From contig NZ_AP023410.1 in NCBI RefSeq assembly GCF_000193495.2, forward strand, positions 1,798,001 through 1,862,000: DNA of 64,000 nucleotides. Reading direction: 5' to 3'. How positions within the stretch are numbered: position 1 is the first letter of the stretch; every line of letters starts with the position of its first letter. The stretch is from Acetobacter aceti NBRC 14818. Lineage in GTDB: Bacteria; Pseudomonadota; Alphaproteobacteria; Acetobacterales; Acetobacteraceae. Made by a program: the position numbers and the translations under genes. The notes under the pieces were generated by a model. It was not told the DNA's origin. It ran no database searches and saw only the letters and a list, made by a program, of their open reading frames with translations. Below are positions 17,218 through 37,244 of the stretch, one piece after another.

Positions 17218-20200
17218 TCAGAAAAATGTGTAGGACTGGTTCCGCTTGCTTTCCAGCGACGTCACAATGGATGCCTGCACAACAGGCGCCACAAGTGCAT
17301 GTCCCGGAGCCAGCGGATGCACATCATCCGTGTAAATGTACCATCCCGTATTTTTCTCAAGTGTATTTGAGAGATCGGAACCGATATCAATCGTCGCCAC
17401 TTTGGAATCACCCGGATAAGCAGAACGATAACTGTTCATGGCGTTATTGAAAACCGCCAGCCATGATGAGGCATATTTCGGAGAATAATGGAAACCGAAT
17501 GGAACAATCTGGAAAAGCCACGCATCCGGTGCTGCCTGACGATGAGCGGCCATCGCCTGCGTCATGGCTGCCTGCGAATCTGACGTGCTGGATTTACTCA
17601 GGGCCTCGTTGGTCAGATAATTGACCGCAATGGCGACAGGCTCTGTCCCAATGTCTCCATAGGCAGAAAGATGGTTGTTGCTGTCAAGCGCTGAGACATT
17701 TTCATCGATCTTGTTCCAGCGACTTTTACTGTCATCATAGGTTCCACCACTGCCGGAACTGGATCCGGAGACGTAGTAATAGGGCGGAACGTCCGCACCG
17801 CTATCTCCACTGATGAGATAACCGGAATAACCACAGGCGGAAACACAGACCTCATATCCCAGCGCTCTTAAACCCTGCAGAACCTGGAATGTGTAACCGT
17901 AAACAATATTATCCTTGTTGTTGTTCGCCTTGATACCTTCTGTGATACTGTCACCAATAATCTTGACCCAGCCTTTTGTGCCCGCGGTCGAAACCCCTGC
18001 ACTCGAGCTGTCATCAAGCGTCATTCCTGACACAACAAGATTGTTCGCACCCTGATTCCAGCGGGCACTCTGCGGTGTATTGCTCATAATGGCAAAAAGG
18101 ACATTTTCTGAAGACGCCGTAATTCCGGACAGCGTGATATCCCCTGTCACAGCGACTGTCGTGCCGACACCATTGAGATACAGGGTAACATACGCTCCTG
18201 TTCCGCTGGGCCCCAGATGAAGGGTTGCCGTCGGGTTGGCGGATGCGGTCCATGTAAAGACAAAATAGGCCCCTACGTTCCATGTACGACGCCATGCAGA
18301 TCCTGCGCGCCCTTCGTCTCCATACCAGTTGCCGGGAGAGAAGAGGAAAGCAGGCGAATCAACCGTGATAGTACCGCCCGTTACGGGCGCAACCGGCGTT
18401 GCCGTCTGTTCTGCCGCCTGTGTCGTGCCAACAGAATTGGTTGCACCAACCGTCACATAGACCGGTGTACCATTTGTCAGGCCGGTAATCGTATAGGAAC
18501 CGGGTGCAGCCAGCGTAGTAACCGGAGAGCTGCTTTCACCTCCAGCACTTGTGCCCACAAAAATCGGATAGCCTGTAATGGCAGCGCCACCCGTGGAGGT
18601 CGGCGCCACAACTGTCACAGTGACCTGACCGGAACCCGGAGCAAGGGTAAAGGAAGGAGCCGACGGGGCTGTCGCCTGTGAAATGACAGTCAGTGACAAT
18701 GCCGATGGATTGGTAAGATTTCCGCTATTCGTCGTCGATAAGGAACCGGAACCGACCGACGAGGGCGTAAAGGTGAACGTGGCCCCACTTGTGCTCCCCG
18801 CCGCGAGCACAACAGTCGCAGGAGAAAATGTGCCCGCAAGTGTACACGTGGGCGTGACAGTAACCGCAGATAATGGAGCAGCATTCGGCGTAACCGTATA
18901 GGTTGCTGCTGTATTCACAGCCAGACTGGAAGAGCCGCTCAGCGTATAGGCCGTGGCTGCAGGCGCAACCGGTGTTGCGGTCTGTTCAGCGGCCTTTGTT
19001 GTGCCTGCTGAATTGGTTGCGCCAACCGTCACATACACCGGTGTGCCGTTTGTCAGACCGGTGATCGTGTAGGAACCGGCAGCTGTCAGCGTGGTGACAG
19101 GAGAACCGCTTTCACCTCCGGCGCTTGTGCCAACAAAAATCGGATAACCCGTAATGGCAGCGCCACCTGTAGAAGTCGACGCCACAACTGTCACAGTGAC
19201 CTGTCCCGAACCCGCTGTCAGGGTAAAGGAAGGAGCCGAAGGGGCTGTCGCCGGTGCGCTGGCAGTCAGTGACAGTGCTGAAGGATTGGTCAGGCTTCCA
19301 TTGTTTGTCGTGGACAAGGAGCCTGAACCGACTGCAGATGGCGTGAAAGTAAACGTAACACCACTGGAACTTCCCGCAGGAAGTGTGACAGTCGTTGGAG
19401 AAAATGAGCCTGCAAGTGTGCATACGGGTGTGACAACCACCGCCGCAGCAGGCTCTCCGTTCGGTGTGACCGTATAGGTTGTGGCGGTATTCACAGTCAG
19501 ACTGGAAGAACCGGTGAGAGTATAGGCTGTGGCCGTAGTGGCGACGGCATCACCATTATAAACAGAGATTTCCTTGATGCCAGCAGCATTGCTACTACTA
19601 GCGGAATAGGCACAGAGACCGAATGATCCAGCGACATTCTGAAGTGCCGAAGCATTCAGTGTTGCGTTACCAGTAACCGTTGCGCTGCCAAGAGTAGCAC
19701 CGGCAGAATTGGTCACGGTAACGACCATAGTTGACGTCGTGGATGTGTCCTGCGTCAACTGAACATCAAGAGTAACCAGATCACCACTGGACGGCTGCGT
19801 CGAAAGCGTCTGATTCAGAAACTGTGTAAGTTTTCCAGCGACTGACGCAAAGCCATGCAGGTAAAAACCGGATGTATTATGATCAATGCTGATCAGATAA
19901 CCCTGAAATGCTGTTGACCCTGTAGCCCGGTTTGCCCGAAGCATAAAATAGATTGTCTGATTGGTATCAATATGAACCTGAGCCGTCATGCGACCAGACA
20001 TCGCGTCTTCCGACTGCGGACGGTATAGAGGTCCACCAGTCCAGGGTGCGCTTTCCTTGATCGACGTCAGATAATCCTGCGTCGTATCGGACACGAGTGT
20101 CGTGCTCGACCAGGCATTGCCGACAAGATCAATCCATCCGTCCAGAAGCGTCTGGCCGGCAGCAACCGGGCCTGCTGCTGCCGTAACCGTAGTATCGGCA

Positions 20201-20220
20201 AGCTGCGTCCATGTGACCAT
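17218..20220 (-). CDS. Modular SGNH-hydrolase protein with Ig-like and fibronectin III repeats
   Basis: 1000 residues. Residues 1-225 look like a lectin/LamG-type beta-sandwich. Residues 232-612 are two copies of an Ig-like plus FnIII pair with a period of 192 residues. Residues 613-745 form a jelly-roll-like domain (FLFSPGNWYGDEGR). Residues 750-990 are an SGNH esterase domain with IIGDSITEG (Ser758), VNYLTNE (Asn871 in the GTND position) and DDVHPLAPGH (Asp965, His968). The jelly-roll plus SGNH order recalls carbohydrate esterase family 2. It likely deacylates a polysaccharide. No signal peptide is visible, so export would need another route. The C-terminus is YTFF. ATG 20220 has AAGGA upstream. 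A degenerate relative lies at 33772. Confidence 0.75.
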   Translation of the reverse strand: MVTWTQLADTTVTAAAGPVAAGQTLLDGWIDLVGNAWSSTTLVSDTTQDYLTSIKESAPWTGGPLYRPQSEDAMSGRMTAQVHIDTNQTIYFMLRANRATGSTAFQGYLISIDHNTSGFYLHGFASVAGKLTQFLNQTLSTQPSSGDLVTLDVQLTQDTSTTSTMVVTVTNSAGATLGSATVTGNATLNASALQNVAGSFGLCAYSASSSNAAGIKEISVYNGDAVATTATAYTLTGSSSLTVNTATTYTVTPNGEPAAAVVVTPVCTLAGSFSPTTVTLPAGSSSGVTFTFTPSAVGSGSLSTTNNGSLTNPSALSLTASAPATAPSAPSFTLTAGSGQVTVTVVASTSTGGAAITGYPIFVGTSAGGESGSPVTTLTAAGSYTITGLTNGTPVYVTVGATNSAGTTKAAEQTATPVAPAATAYTLSGSSSLAVNTAATYTVTPNAAPLSAVTVTPTCTLAGTFSPATVVLAAGSTSGATFTFTPSSVGSGSLSTTNSGNLTNPSALSLTVISQATAPSAPSFTLAPGSGQVTVTVVAPTSTGGAAITGYPIFVGTSAGGESSSPVTTLAAPGSYTITGLTNGTPVYVTVGATNSVGTTQAAEQTATPVAPVTGGTITVDSPAFLFSPGNWYGDEGRAGSAWRRTWNVGAYFVFTWTASANPTATLHLGPSGTGAYVTLYLNGVGTTVAVTGDITLSGITASSENVLFAIMSNTPQSARWNQGANNLVVSGMTLDDSSSAGVSTAGTKGWVKIIGDSITEGIKANNNKDNIVYGYTFQVLQGLRALGYEVCVSACGYSGYLISGDSGADVPPYYYVSGSSSGSGGTYDDSKSRWNKIDENVSALDSNNHLSAYGDIGTEPVAIAVNYLTNEALSKSSTSDSQAAMTQAMAAHRQAAPDAWLFQIVPFGFHYSPKYASSWLAVFNNAMNSYRSAYPGDSKVATIDIGSDLSNTLEKNTGWYIYTDDVHPLAPGHALVAPVVQASIVTSLESKRNQSYTFF
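18385..19527 (-). repeat. Tandem 576-base coding repeat, two copies
   Basis: Within the SGNH gene, the unit encoding residues 232-423 (19527-18952) is repeated as residues 424-612 (18951-18385). Each unit encodes one Ig-like and one FnIII domain. The two units share long stretches of near-identical DNA, for example around GCCGTGCTTGTGCC-like segments of the FnIII part, which points to a recent tandem duplication that could expand or contract by recombination. Confidence 0.8.
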
Positions 20221-32086: not shown

Positions 32087-33199
32087 TTGCGCAAGATTCT
32101 CCTGTGTCTGGGCCTTTCCATGGTGGCGCTGTCCTCTGCCCGGCAGGCCTATGCCCAGTTCGCTCCCGAGCACAGCGCGTCCTATCTGGACGCACGACGG
32201 GATTCCGAGCTACGCCACCAGACGCTCAGCCGGATGCTGATGACCATGAACATGGACCCCGGCGACGAAGGCGTCGTGGATACGTCGCCTCTCACACAGT
32301 ACCGCATGCCGACACATCGTTTCGAGCCGGAAGAAGGCCAGCAACATCCGCGGCGCCATCGCTCTCTGCCCGATGAGCCATCGTCCTACCGTCCCGGTAG
32401 CTCTTACCAGGGGTCTTCCCATATTCCGGCCGTCGTTCAGGTCAATCGGGAAATCGGGCTTTCCATGACGGGTGCGTGGAGCAACTACAAGGAAAAGCTC
32501 CCCTGGCAGGGGGCCAGCACCGGATATGACCGGGAAACCGGCTGGGTGCCAGGCTTCCAGCTTGATGTCGCCGACATGTTCGATATGTACGAAATCGATC
32601 ATGTCTTTCTCGCCGCGCACTTCGCACTTGGCGACGGCAACGTATCCTACAAGGGATCAGCATCTGATGGTCTAGGCGATGTCTGGCCGCTCAACAGCAC
32701 CTCACACCGGATGACCACAGACAGCCGGATTGAAATCGGCAAGGGTCTGATGGTCAATGATCGCTTCATGATTACCCCGACGATCGTCGGCGGTTACTGG
32801 TCATGGAACCGGGATATCCAGTCAGCCGGCGGTGTCCCGAAAAGTTCGGAAGCCTATGGCGGCTTCCTCGCCGGTATTCAGGTGAGGCTCGATTACGCCA
32901 TTACCGATGCATTCGTCCTCAGGGGACGGCTTGCATGGACGGAACTGCTGGGCTCACGCATGGACGCAGCAAACGCAACGGGCACTTTCCATCTTCGCCC
33001 CCGCCCGGAATGGACAGCTGGTCTTGATTTCGATTACCGCATTGCCCGGTCGCTTCATGTGATTGGAGGCGTGCAATACACATATTATTCGTTTGGCCGC
33101 AGTCAGCTCATTGATCAGCACAATGGTTTCTATGCGCTCGAACCCAGCAGCTGGACCAATGGTGTCACCCTTCATTCCGGGGTTGCTTACGGCTTCTGA
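32087..33199 (+). CDS. Outer membrane beta-barrel protein, unknown role
   Basis: 370 residues starting at TTG 32087. A signal peptide (MRKILLCLGLSMVALSSA, cleavage near AYA-Q) precedes a charged, Pro/Arg/Ser-rich stretch to about residue 115, then a barrel-like C-terminal 250 residues with alternating hydrophobic and aromatic positions and a terminal phenylalanine (SGVAYGF). The pattern fits an outer membrane barrel with an N-terminal periplasmic or plug-like segment. No specific family is recognised. It follows folC by 78 bases on the same strand but probably has its own promoter. Confidence 0.65.
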   Translation: MRKILLCLGLSMVALSSARQAYAQFAPEHSASYLDARRDSELRHQTLSRMLMTMNMDPGDEGVVDTSPLTQYRMPTHRFEPEEGQQHPRRHRSLPDEPSSYRPGSSYQGSSHIPAVVQVNREIGLSMTGAWSNYKEKLPWQGASTGYDRETGWVPGFQLDVADMFDMYEIDHVFLAAHFALGDGNVSYKGSASDGLGDVWPLNSTSHRMTTDSRIEIGKGLMVNDRFMITPTIVGGYWSWNRDIQSAGGVPKSSEAYGGFLAGIQVRLDYAITDAFVLRGRLAWTELLGSRMDAANATGTFHLRPRPEWTAGLDFDYRIARSLHVIGGVQYTYYSFGRSQLIDQHNGFYALEPSSWTNGVTLHSGVAYGF

Positions 33200-33771
33200 T
33201 ATAAATTCCTTACTGGGTTTCCGGGACAGGACAGACAGAATACTGCCTTGCACTTCTTCCTGTTCAAAATCCGGATCGTAGAAACTGCTGACAGTAAAAC
33301 GACAAACCTGGAGTTGTCATTTTGAGAAGATAATATTCTTAGGCAACCTTTGAAAATCACCACAATTGAGCTGATGTGTCTTCCCGAATTCTTTCAGATG
33401 ACGACATCAGGATCAAGACCAGTATTTTTCCATTTTTCTGTAATTTTTCTCATCGTGAGGGTGCGCCCGTTATCAGGGACGGTTAAGCAGCCATAAAAGG
33501 CATGCGTGACCAGGGAACACCGCTTCATGGATTGAAAACAGTCTGATCAGACAATTATTTCCTACTTAATAAAACTATATTTCATACATGATTGTATAAA
33601 AATATAGGATTACTGATTTCCCATTCTGCAATTTTACCCAGAACGTATCAAAAAAATAGAAAGCTATCTTACTGTTCGGCAGAAATTCATTTCCAAAAGA
33701 CGCATTTTTAAAAAATAATTTTTTGCAAATACATGAATTACAATACAGACGATAATAAAGAGCACTGATAT
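33200..33771. other. Long AT-rich intergenic region
   Basis: 572 bases that are much more AT-rich than the neighbouring genes, especially 33540-33770. No convincing gene, tRNA or terminator is seen; a minus-strand open frame at 33575-33835 overlaps the next gene and looks random. The promoter of the downstream Ig-repeat protein should lie here. The composition resembles the leader of the related gene near 20.3 kb. Confidence 0.5.
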
Positions 33772-35853
33772 ATGAGCGACACATCCACGGACATTCCCCT
33801 GATCTCCCCGGCCTATACGCTAACAGGACCCGCATCCCTGTCCGTGGGTTCCAAAGCCATCTTCAGCGTGACACCCACAGCAGGCACAACACTGTCGGCT
33901 CCCTTGATCATCACCCCCACATGCACGTTGTCCGGCACTTTTATCCCGGCAACCGTTACCCTGCCCGCCGGTTCCACCAGCACCGTGACGTTTACATTCA
34001 CACCGATGGAAGCAGGTTCAGGCACGCTGAGCACAACAAACTCTGCCGGTCTGACCGACCCCATTGCTCTTTCCGTATTCTCGATCGCTCTTTCCAATAG
34101 CTTCACAACCTACACACTGACAGGCGCCACCAGCCTAATCGCTGGCGTTGCATCCACCTACACCATCACACCCGGTTCCGGAGCAGCCTCGTCACAGGCC
34201 ATTGCAATCACGCCTCTCTGCACACTGACAGGCACTTTCTCACCAGCAGTCGTCTCTTTGCCAGCAGGTTCCACCAGCGCTGTCACATTCACTTTCACCC
34301 CGACGGCCAGCGGCGTGGGGACACTCAGCACGAGCAGCAATGGATCGCTGACTGATCCGGGAGATCTGTTTATAACAGTTGCTTCCACACAGACGCCTTT
34401 TACACAATACTCCCTGACGGGACCACAGGCGCTGACCGTAGGTTCAGCCGCCACCTACACAATCACTCCGGGAATCGGCACAGCCAATACAAAAGCGATT
34501 ACAATCGTTCCCAATTGCACACTGGCTGGAACATTTTCTCCACAAACCAGCACCATTCCTGCAGGATCGACAGCGCCCTTAACGTTCACATTCACTCCCT
34601 CCGTTGCGGGAACAGGCAATTTCACTGTTACCAACTCAGCCGCGCTGAGTAATCCGGCCGCGTTCACCGTCACCGCCATGACGTTCAGTTCCGCCTATAC
34701 GCTTACAGTCGACTCTTCAGCGTTCCTCTTCTCTCCCGGAAACTGGACCGGTGATGAAGGACGTGACGGCTCACTCTGGCGCAGCACCTGGAATCCGGGA
34801 GCATGGTTTCAGATTTCATGGCTGGCTTCAGCAACTCCTACAGCCACACTTCATCTCGGTCCGGAGAATACTGGCGCCTATATCACCTATTTTCTCAATG
34901 GAGTTGCAACCAGAGACATTGCAGCGAAAACCGACCTGACGCTTTCCAATATTCTGCCGGGACAGGTCAACAGACTGGAAGTCTTTCTGACACGAACACC
35001 AGCTTCAGACCGCTGGAACAAGGGAAACAACTGCCTCACCGTCAGCGGCCTGACGATCGATCCAGCTTCCTCGGCTGCCTATATCGTCGCAGAACGCCCA
35101 TGGGGCAAGCTGGTGGGCGATGATACGACAGAGGGCACATCCGCTGATGCTGGCAGCGATAATGTGCTTTCATCCTATGCCTATTTCCTGTTGCGCGGCA
35201 TGGAGACAGCAGGTTACCGGACCTGCATATCGGCCTGTGCCGGTTCAGGCTACATCACTGCTGGTGACAGCACGAAAGATGTTCCGGCATTTTACTCGGT
35301 CACAGGATCAAGCAACGGTCTTGGCGGAGCGTATAGCGACACAAAAAGTCGTTGGAATCTCGTTGATTCCGGCATTTCGGCTCTTGATAGCAATGGCCTT
35401 CTCAGTTCTTACGGGGATATCGGGACGCCTCCAAGCTGGATTGCCTTCAATCTTCTGTCCCGTGACGCGCTGGCTTATGCCAATCAGTCTGACGCGCAAG
35501 CTGCAATGACACAGTGCCTCACCGCTCACAGGGCAGCAGCGCCTGATGCATGGCTGTTCGCCATCATGCCTTTTGGTTTTCGCTATGCCACGACGTACAG
35601 CGTCACCTGGCCCCAACTTTTTACAAATGCAGTCACCAACTACAGGCTGTCCAATCCTGACGATGACAAGGTCGTCGTTGTGGACCCTGGAACCGATCTT
35701 GCCGTTCTTCTGGGATCCAACCGGGACTGGTACACGACAACCGATGGCAGCCAACTGCTGGAAACCGGGCAGGCAATTTTTGCCTCCGTTGTCTCAAGCA
35801 CCATCCTCGGTAGTATGACGACTCATAATGACAGAACATACACTTATTACTAA
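33772..35853 (+). CDS. Ig-repeat protein with a degenerate SGNH domain (probable pseudoenzyme)
   Basis: 693 residues, related to the 1000-residue protein at 17218-20220. Three Ig-like modules (about 15-110, 114-207, 213-303), each starting Y-T/S-L-T-G, are followed by a jelly-roll-like domain (FLFSPGNWTGDEGRDGS) and an SGNH-type domain. The catalytic residues are changed: GDDTTEG has Asp451 in place of Ser, FNLLSRD has Arg564 in place of the GTND Asn, and TTDGSQ has Gln661 in place of His. The frame is intact over the full length, so the gene is not simply decayed. No signal peptide; the C-terminus is YTYY. A binding or structural role is more likely than esterase activity. Confidence 0.72.
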   Translation: MSDTSTDIPLISPAYTLTGPASLSVGSKAIFSVTPTAGTTLSAPLIITPTCTLSGTFIPATVTLPAGSTSTVTFTFTPMEAGSGTLSTTNSAGLTDPIALSVFSIALSNSFTTYTLTGATSLIAGVASTYTITPGSGAASSQAIAITPLCTLTGTFSPAVVSLPAGSTSAVTFTFTPTASGVGTLSTSSNGSLTDPGDLFITVASTQTPFTQYSLTGPQALTVGSAATYTITPGIGTANTKAITIVPNCTLAGTFSPQTSTIPAGSTAPLTFTFTPSVAGTGNFTVTNSAALSNPAAFTVTAMTFSSAYTLTVDSSAFLFSPGNWTGDEGRDGSLWRSTWNPGAWFQISWLASATPTATLHLGPENTGAYITYFLNGVATRDIAAKTDLTLSNILPGQVNRLEVFLTRTPASDRWNKGNNCLTVSGLTIDPASSAAYIVAERPWGKLVGDDTTEGTSADAGSDNVLSSYAYFLLRGMETAGYRTCISACAGSGYITAGDSTKDVPAFYSVTGSSNGLGGAYSDTKSRWNLVDSGISALDSNGLLSSYGDIGTPPSWIAFNLLSRDALAYANQSDAQAAMTQCLTAHRAAAPDAWLFAIMPFGFRYATTYSVTWPQLFTNAVTNYRLSNPDDDKVVVVDPGTDLAVLLGSNRDWYTTTDGSQLLETGQAIFASVVSSTILGSMTTHNDRTYTYY
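33814..34680 (+). repeat. Three tandem Ig-like coding modules
   Basis: The gene encodes three consecutive modules of about 95 residues that share YTLTG, TP-C-TL-GTFSP, LPAGST-TFTFTP and G-LST-N-LT-P positions. They are more diverged from each other than the 576-base repeat units of the larger relative, and there are no FnIII modules between them. Confidence 0.75.
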
Positions 35854-35903
35854 GTAAGATATTTTCATTTATTTTCAGAAATAAGGTCAATCGACCATCA
35901 TAA

Positions 35904-35937
35904 AAAAGGGTGTTCCACTCACATGGAACACCCTTTT
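35904..35937. terminator. Strong bidirectional terminator
   Basis: A perfect 14-bp inverted repeat pairs 35904-35917 with 35924-35937 (core GGGTGTTCCA/TGGAACACCC, loop CTCACA), with A and T ends on both sides. It separates the convergent Ig-repeat protein gene and gabT. Confidence 0.92.
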
Positions 35938-35963
35938 GAACTTCAGAGAACTGAACGCTGACT

Positions 35964-37244
35964 TCAGCCAGCAAGAACTTTCTCAAGAAGATCCAGGCCT
36001 TCATTCAGCACTTCGTCACTGATGGTCAGAGGCGGCAGCAGACGAACCGTCTCGCCGAGAACGCCACAGGACAGCACGATGAGACCCGCTTCCGCCGCAC
36101 GCGCGCAGATCTGGCCCGCACCACCGGCTTTCACCTCGTCAGATCCGTGGGCGCTGAGCACATCGAAACCAACCATTGCGCCGAGACCATGAGCCTTGCC
36201 AACCGGCGTCAGATCGGTGCGCTCTGCCCAGCCCGCAATGCGCTTGCTGATCGTCGCACCGATATGCTCTGCACGGGCACAGAGCTTTTCCTTTTCGATG
36301 ACATCCAGAACAGCGAGACCTGCTGCACAGGCGAGCGGAGAGCCACCATAGGTGCCACCCAGACCGCCCGGACGGACAGCATCCATGATCTCTGCACGAC
36401 CGACGACACCGGACAGCGGGAATCCGCCACCAAGAGCCTTGGCGACCGAGATCAGGTCAGGCTTGACGTCCGAATGCTGGATGCCAAACAGCTTGCCTGT
36501 ACGGGCAAAACCGGTCTGGACTTCATCCGCAATCAGCAGAATACCGTGCTTCGTGCAACGCTCGCGCAGACCTTCCAGCAGTTCCTTCGGGCTTACCCGG
36601 AAGCCGCCCTCACCCTGAATCGGCTCAATGATGATCGCAGCCACGCGGGACGGATCAATGTCCGCAGCAAACATCAGGTCAAGCGCATTGAGGCTGTCCG
36701 CAACCGACACGCCACGAGCCGGGAACGGCGCATGGAAAACGTCACCCGGCATGGTGCCGAACTGCGTCTTGTAGGGGTTCACCTTGCCGGTCATGGCAGA
36801 TGCAAGCAGCGTGCGGCCATGGAAGCCACCGGTAAAAGCGATAACGCCTGAACGGCCTGTGGCGGCGCGAGCGATCTTCACAGCGTTCTCGGTCGCTTCC
36901 GCGCCTGTCGTGAAGAAGATGCTTTTCGCCGGGCCATCGAACGGTGCTGCGGCATTCAGACGTTCTGCAAGGGCAATATAGTTTTCATACGGAGCGACCT
37001 GAAAGCCCGTATGGCTGAAATGCTCAAGCTGTTCCTGCACAGCCTGAATGACAGCCGGATGACGATGGCCAACGTTGACCACAGCGATGCCTGCTGCAAA
37101 GTCAACGTAGCGCCGTCCTTCGACATCCCACAGTTCAGCCCCCTGAGCGCGATCCGCATAAATAGCGGTCGCCGACCCCACACCAACAGGAACGGCGGCT
37201 GCACGACGAGCCGACAGATCCTTATTGCTCTTGCCTGTACTCAC
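35964..37244 (-). CDS. gabT: 4-aminobutyrate aminotransferase
   Basis: About 426 residues of the class III aminotransferase family. Landmarks are VNVGHRHPAVIQAVQEQL, TTGAEATENAVKIARAATGR, FHGRTLLA, EPIQGEGGF, LLIADEVQTGFARTGKLF and SVAKALGGGFPLSG, the last holding the PLP lysine. It moves the amino group of GABA to 2-oxoglutarate, forming succinic semialdehyde. GTG 37244 is preferred because AGGAAAA precedes it; the open frame reaches TTG 37262. Position next to a polyamine transporter and an aminobutyraldehyde dehydrogenase supports a role at the end of putrescine catabolism; it might also accept putrescine. Confidence 0.92.
   Translation of the reverse strand: MSTGKSNKDLSARRAAAVPVGVGSATAIYADRAQGAELWDVEGRRYVDFAAGIAVVNVGHRHPAVIQAVQEQLEHFSHTGFQVAPYENYIALAERLNAAAPFDGPAKSIFFTTGAEATENAVKIARAATGRSGVIAFTGGFHGRTLLASAMTGKVNPYKTQFGTMPGDVFHAPFPARGVSVADSLNALDLMFAADIDPSRVAAIIIEPIQGEGGFRVSPKELLEGLRERCTKHGILLIADEVQTGFARTGKLFGIQHSDVKPDLISVAKALGGGFPLSGVVGRAEIMDAVRPGGLGGTYGGSPLACAAGLAVLDVIEKEKLCARAEHIGATISKRIAGWAERTDLTPVGKAHGLGAMVGFDVLSAHGSDEVKAGGAGQICARAAEAGLIVLSCGVLGETVRLLPPLTISDEVLNEGLDLLEKVLAG

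Follow-up and report, generated by a model that had tools for sequence, protein, structure and literature searches.

The window, a 64,000-nucleotide stretch of the Acetobacter aceti NBRC 14818 genome (contig NZ_AP023410.1, positions 1,798,001 to 1,862,000 of the forward strand), contains a gene for a protein that resembles an SGNH esterase in which the residues expected to drive catalysis have been replaced. The locus raises the question of whether the gene is in decay, encodes an enzyme of altered chemistry or has been kept for a role that does not require hydrolysis. The comparisons presented here, which include a second window protein with an intact set of catalytic motifs (the active paralogue), show that the protein is very probably a selected pseudoenzyme. 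Its present work is, with more reserve, likely to be the non-hydrolytic binding of a glycan through a CE2-like cleft. The coordinates of the features discussed are given in Table 1.

Table 1 Window coordinates of the pseudoenzyme locus, its replaced or retained active-site positions and the active-type paralogue
Feature	Position	Strand	Remarks
Conserved 21-nt upstream element GGACGGTTAAGCAGCCATAAA	33477..33497	+	274 bases before the ATG
Pseudoenzyme gene	33772..35853	+	693 aa plus stop; frame uninterrupted
Three Ig-like repeats	33814..34680	+	Residues ~15-104, 114-205 and 213-303; bounds by eye from YTLTG/YSLTG repeats
N-terminal jelly-roll domain	34702..35085	+	Residues ~311-438; from alignment, model strands and CE2/CBM35/CBM36 matches
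SGNH-fold domain without SGNH residues	35104..35811	+	Residues ~445-680; from alignment, model and Foldseek
Asp451 for nucleophile Ser	35122..35124	+	Asp in 8/8 orthologues; SGNH nucleophile absent
Ala490 for block II oxyanion Gly	35239..35241	+	A 4, T 3, V 1 of 8; block II Gly absent
Arg564 for block III oxyanion Asn	35461..35463	+	R 5, Q 1, N 2 of 8; block III Asn absent from the window protein
Asp658, block V Asp (DxxH)	35743..35745	+	Three residues before the lost His; kept in 8/8
Gln661 for catalytic His	35752..35754	+	Q 6, R 2 of 8; block V His absent
Active-type paralogue	17218..20220	-	1000 aa; concanavalin-like start (by eye), Ig/Fn3 repeats, jelly roll, SGNH domain

BLASTP of the pseudoenzyme against the active paralogue returned 289 identities in 624 positions (46%, E 7e-153), and the C-terminal two-domain units of the two proteins are 52% identical. 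The active paralogue differs from the pseudoenzyme in having an extra N-terminal domain and the complete set of S, G, N, H and D; its GDSITEG, Asn and DxxHP are all intact, and it is matched by two GDSL lipase models of Pfam, one of which (E 3.3e-6) falls short of its cut-off and the other (6.6e-6) passes it. GDSL models were absent among the 13 Pfam families listed for the pseudoenzyme at E 1, NCBIfam gave no match to it at E 0.1, and a PDB sequence search yielded nothing below E 0.3 for either domain. The Ig-like repeats of the pseudoenzyme were recognised in three stretches by fn3_5 (PF06280, E 1.3e-8), and PF24507 and PF15780 (Ig-like/ASH) were above cut-off. Within the SGNH domain, block I has changed from GDSITEG to GDDTTEG (Ser758 to Asp451), block II has Ala490 for Gly797, block III reads NLLSRDA for NYLTNEA (Asn to Arg564) and block V reads TDGSQLL for TDDVHPL (His968 to Gln661). 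An earlier interpretation made from the DNA alone (the sequence-only reading) had proposed the Ser, Asn and His replacements, which BLASTP and the alignment confirm, and an open frame of 693 codons, which indeed runs without interruption. It had also held that all the catalytic residues are replaced; this is correct for Ser, Asn and His, and Gly797, which it had missed, can be added, but Asp658 is retained and the triad has lost Ser and His only. Its pairing of DDVHPL with TTDGSQ was out of register, the true counterpart being DGSQLL.

A domain alignment of 24 rows, eight pseudo-type and 16 active-type, shows how the changes are distributed within the family; the conservation of the REPLACEMENTS was scored over the eight pseudo-type rows. 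Ser, Gly, Asn and His are retained in all 16 active-type homologues, which, judged by these motifs, are presumably active. Forty-eight columns are invariant in the active-type rows and the pseudoenzyme differs at seven of them, including all four SGNH columns, which were set beforehand by the family definition (hypergeometric 1.8e-4). Outside the SGNH set, the differing columns are the Ile that follows the Ser, the Pro that follows the His and, six columns further along, a second His. In the Ser, Ile, Gly, His and Pro columns none of the eight pseudo-type rows has the family residue, the Pro being Leu in every orthologue. The complete loss of the family residue from these five columns, together with the enrichment of SGNH positions, therefore indicates that loss is focused on the catalytic centre. 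The Asp, Arg and Gln replacements, whose conservation in a clade the sequence-only reading had proposed as a check, occur in eight, five and six of the eight orthologues, respectively. The two orthologues that keep the block III Asn are from A. estunensis and, as the clade is monophyletic and Ser and His are lost in all eight rows, loss of the Asn therefore appears to be later than that of Ser and His. The motifs SRWN and FSPGNW-GD-GR are kept in the clade, and the jelly-roll motif FSPGNWTGDEGR is retained in the pseudoenzyme.

Selection on the gene was estimated by Nei-Gojobori counting over 376 C-terminal codons. For the 11 of 28 pseudo-type pairs with dS below 1.2, dN/dS was 0.033-0.096, and the active clade gave 0.050-0.103 (11 of 15 pairs finite, the other four having no finite dS). 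Pseudo-type pairs in which one member, and not the other, is G005, G006 or G007 approach or exceed saturation, with dN/dS up to 0.205, and one of the 28 pairs had no finite dS. In the SGNH part, the comparison of the window with its five nearest orthologues gave 0.014-0.102, the G005 pair being saturated. From the window to G036, G034, G001, G040 and G005, the pseudoenzyme has dN values of 0.005, 0.037, 0.057, 0.067 and 0.167, and the active paralogue has values of 0.009, 0.036, 0.111, 0.049 and 0.165. The two proteins are under constraint of about equal strength. None of the eight orthologues contains an internal stop. The protein thus combines the two properties expected of a pseudoenzyme: it is a homologue of an active family without the essential residues, and it is under purifying selection across species (eight genomes, different species). 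The preference of the sequence-only reading for a selected pseudoenzyme over a decaying gene is well supported by the eight-genome clade, by dN/dS ratios far below 1, the check that it had proposed, and by the open frames.

The family has a narrow distribution. At E 0.001 it was detected in eight of 49 Acetobacter genomes, the window's own included, among them Acetobacter sp. UBA5411, A. sicerae LMG 1531 and two A. estunensis (G006 and G007); L001-L004 were omitted from the count as apparent duplicates of G036, G034, G006 and G007. The 18 matches comprise eight pseudo-type and 10 active-type genes, each carrier having one of the former and at least one of the latter, and 41 genomes have neither. 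The replacements are accordingly not confined to a single genome; such confinement, which the sequence-only reading had named as fatal to its proposal, is excluded. Among 397 genomes sampled across the family Acetobacteraceae there were four matches, all in Acetobacter (one of 102 genera), and among 385 sampled across the class the only match was in the window's own genome. In the phylum of L006, a Verrucomicrobia MAG, five of 387 genomes, that of L006 included, have relatives at 40-44% identity, and the four newly found are of the active type. Carriage by phages or plasmids was rejected, as tblastn of the C-terminal unit gave no matches in phage and plasmid collections and PHROGs gave none at E 0.1. 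The pseudoenzyme gene lies between omp and argD in all eight carriers, and in a tree of 20 rows the pseudo-type sequences form a single clade (support 100/99), whose long stem measures 0.57 changes per column. When a nadE tree was built for 18 of the 49 genomes (best matches; G037 was dropped for an internal stop), the carriers fell together (94/96, marked 'open' by the program), adjoining six genomes (97/95) that have omp but no family member. Clade, gene order and nadE grouping fit a single origin in one lineage; the orthologues fall into about three well-separated lineages and should not be counted as eight independent cases.

AlphaFold2 models built from 8-row alignments (window, L001-L006) are of middling confidence for both the pseudo-type domain (pLDDT 72.7, pTM 0.78, several loops below 50) and the active-type domain (pLDDT 68.3, pTM 0.73). 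With the pseudo-type model, the top 12 Foldseek matches were chains of CE2 enzymes or SsfX3 (E 9e-14 to 4e-10), the best being Est2A (4dev), 4xvh, CjCE2A (2waa) and CtCE2 with cellohexaose (2wao), at E ~1e-13, TM-scores of 0.50-0.54 by query length and 10-15% identity. The top 10 matches of the active-type model were all CE2 chains. The Foldseek matches and the 52% identity to the active-type domain point to an SGNH fold acquired by descent, and the models and Foldseek, with the same middling confidence, to the CE2 domain order of jelly roll followed by SGNH. In this order and in its predicted fold the protein is similar to CtCE2, CjCE2A/B and BpEst2A. It differs from these enzymes in the absence of Ser and His, and in the three Ig-like repeats in front. 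The Ser-His dyad of CE2, described as invariant in the source text (PMC2661963), is missing throughout the pseudo-type clade.

The consequences of such replacements can be gauged from characterized enzymes. For an SGNH lipase it is reported that replacing Ser, Asn or His by Ala abolished activity, and that the block II Gly could be changed to Ala without such a loss (PMC10779480); the CtCE2 mutants S612A and H791A are described as having no esterase activity (PMC2661963). As Ser and His are both replaced in the pseudoenzyme, esterase chemistry should end, and from these precedents the protein almost certainly lacks esterase activity; replacement of the Gly alone would not suffice. Wild-type CtCE2, from Clostridium thermocellum, provides a precedent, according to the same account, for a CE2 active-site cleft that acts as a non-catalytic polysaccharide binder, and the S612A mutant bound cellohexaose ~8-fold more tightly than wild type (PMC2661963). 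CtCE2, however, keeps its own dyad and activity, both components of the dyad being absent from the Acetobacter protein. We propose glycan binding because a CE2 cleft deprived of its nucleophile leaves binding without turnover. The retention of SRWN, FSPGNW-GD-GR and the jelly roll suggests that contact with the ligand has been preserved, and the reading that best fits these data, on balance a probable one, is therefore a protein that binds a glycan without catalysis and is borne by the Ig-like repeats. The reported ~20-fold weaker binding of cellohexaose by H791A (PMC2661963) counts against it, as the pseudoenzyme has lost the His as well. Aromatic residues in the cleft are the hallmark of cellulose binding in CtCE2; the fixed new Trp556 of the pseudoenzyme is placed by the model at a strand start and is likely off-site.

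A plausible history starts with an Acetobacter ancestor in which a CE2-like deacetylase, comprising a jelly roll and an SGNH domain behind Ig-like repeats, would have been duplicated, with one copy settling between the omp gene and argD. The nucleophile Ser, general-base His and oxyanion Gly would have been lost before the known orthologues split, and the oxyanion Asn in later lineages, with retention of the fold and of several strongly conserved motifs. In the resulting protein the Ig repeats may form a stalk, with acetylated or plain polysaccharide held by the jelly roll and by the cleft of the old active site. The glycan ligand, the stalk role and the extracellular place are putative. Fruit hemicellulose, pectin or the cell's own acetylated exopolysaccharide can be offered as guesses at the ligand. 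Bcs-type cellulose made by the cell itself is an unlikely candidate, as BcsB (PF03170) was found in none of the 14 genomes searched (eight carriers and six neighbours, 12 of them of high quality); a control search gave matches in two of 14 well-known genomes. The extracellular place is uncertain because inspection by eye showed no Sec-type signal peptide where the conserved part of the pseudoenzyme orthologues starts, and the protein either needs another export route or is intracellular. The G006 and G007 orthologues have a longer upstream open frame with a hydrophobic stretch. In the verrucomicrobial relatives L005 and L006 a hydrophobic, signal-like stretch, identified by eye, directly precedes the domain.

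Dead SGNH folds are already known, and the Acetobacter clade would, in all likelihood, be a case of the CE2 type. Precedents are the OSK domain of Oskar in insects, as outlined in PMC12247748, and plant At1g54030 (MVP1/GOLD36/ERMO3), described in PMC4757993 as a GDSL-family protein without lipase activity that is kept for another role, in which respect it is the same as the pseudoenzyme. The OSK domain differs in being eukaryotic and in engaging RNA rather than a glycan. It presumably has neither a jelly roll nor Ig repeats, and At1g54030 we take to belong to the plant GDSL lipase family and not to be CE2-like. Among the matches listed in the literature search, which consisted of titles and abstract starts and included few subscription papers, none concerned a CE2-like pseudoenzyme or the Acetobacter protein. 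CtCE2, the best-studied CE2 enzyme, shows that the cleft can serve as a binding site as well. With a clade that lacks the dyad and has its fold under selection, nature offers a way to ask whether such a cleft can be turned over entirely to binding, the active-type members in the same genomes being the control.

An unlikely alternative to glycan binding is that the protein acts as a subunit or regulator that pairs or competes with the cell's active CE2-like enzymes, through a heterodimer, substrate presentation or titration. Such a role would be consistent with the occurrence of at least one active-type member in 8/8 carriers and in 0/41 of the other Acetobacter genomes, and with the location of active and pseudo genes within ~17 kb of each other in five of the eight carriers, mostly with the same genes between. 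The co-occurrence is, however, expected by descent, and is not independent evidence, because the carriers group in the nadE tree. Furthermore, the two genes in the window are not in one operon, those of G005 are on different contigs, and the two A. estunensis carriers lack a close active orthologue, having only distant active-type members; the last observation also weakens the example offered by the sequence-only reading, that the protein binds what the active relative acts on. The two window proteins both end in YT[FY][FY]-stop (YTFF/YTYY), a pattern that no other stop of the genome has and that would fit such a role, but the ending is kept in only five of the eight pseudoenzyme orthologues (YLYY in G005, CTFY in G006 and G007). 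The pattern has three matches in the genome, comprising the two window proteins and one that is not at a stop, and four in a backwards control. A general secretion tag at the C-terminus was rejected, as no other stop in the genome carries the exact pattern.

It is also rather improbable that the esterase chemistry has been traded for a new activity. On this proposal, which draws on the alignment, the Ser replaced by Asp451 beside the invariant Asp450, an Asn changed to Asp459, a Gln changed to Arg475 and the kept Asp658 would form, within a CE2-type cleft, an acidic centre that might bind a metal or work by acid-acid catalysis, giving a glycosidase-, lyase- or transferase-like enzyme. Asp451, Asp459 and Arg475 occur in all eight pseudo-type rows and in none of the 16 active-type rows, Asp450 and Glu454 are also kept in the clade, and Asp658 is conserved in 8/8, whereas the positions that once had Gly, Asn and His vary. 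As 195 of 377 columns are invariant within the clade in any case, a few fixed residues are weak, if suggestive, evidence for a new site. The variation of positions 564 and 661 between lineages would, in addition, be unusual for catalytic residues.

The possibility that the protein has remained an SGNH-type esterase, with an unusual motif, is very remote. An active fungal GDS(L) hydrolase is described as lacking the usual Asn, Asp and His (PMC11372007), and the Gly to Ala change was tolerated in the lipase mentioned above (PMC10779480); the fungal enzyme, however, retains its nucleophile Ser (PMC11372007), which is Asp in all eight pseudoenzyme orthologues. A normal triad assembled from other residues, the second outcome that would have told against the sequence-only reading, is also unlikely. 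The only fully conserved His columns of the clade are His361, which belongs to the jelly roll, and His586, which lies near a helix end before the next strand, and no other fully conserved His lies within the SGNH blocks of the eight orthologues; by the topology of the predicted fold, the helix end at His586 would be opposite the active site. Recent decay of the gene, or a sequencing artefact in one strain, either of which would account for the loss of otherwise invariant residues, was rejected as extremely improbable in view of the strongly supported clade of eight genomes from different species, their intact frames, the low dN/dS where measurable and an upstream element conserved in five of the eight.

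That element, GGACGGTTAAGCAGCCATAAA, occurs with 0-1 mismatch in 5/5 inner-group genomes (the window and four others), the spacer having diverged, and its 17-nt core has one occurrence in the genome at up to two mismatches. It is possibly a regulatory site. It was not found upstream of the pseudoenzyme in G005-G007; a stretch reading GGACGGTTA is present in G006 and G007. An RNA element near the gene was rejected, as Rfam gave no matches in 33150-35990 at E 0.5. Sigma-70-like sites (three, with 2.6 expected) and terminator-like sites (three, with 2.4 expected) are at chance level. The neighbouring omp (window 32087-33199) encodes a protein that appears by eye to resemble an outer-membrane barrel, with no Pfam or NCBIfam match. 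Relatives of omp are present in 14 of 49 Acetobacter genomes and follow folC in the eight carriers and in six others, one of which, contig L083, ends directly past omp. A functional link between omp and the pseudoenzyme is not specific, as omp follows folC in 6/6 genomes that have omp and no family member.

The window's genome contains a third family member (L009/L037, G000:C1 3030840-3031973), which is 65% identical to the active-type domain and has GDSITEG, N and DxxHP intact; its C-terminus is different and without the YTFF end. The verrucomicrobial-type relatives L005, L006 and L045-L048 keep S, G, N and H, with GGLHP at block V and thus no Asp, and, on the evidence of these motifs, may work by a Ser-His dyad, like many CE2 enzymes.
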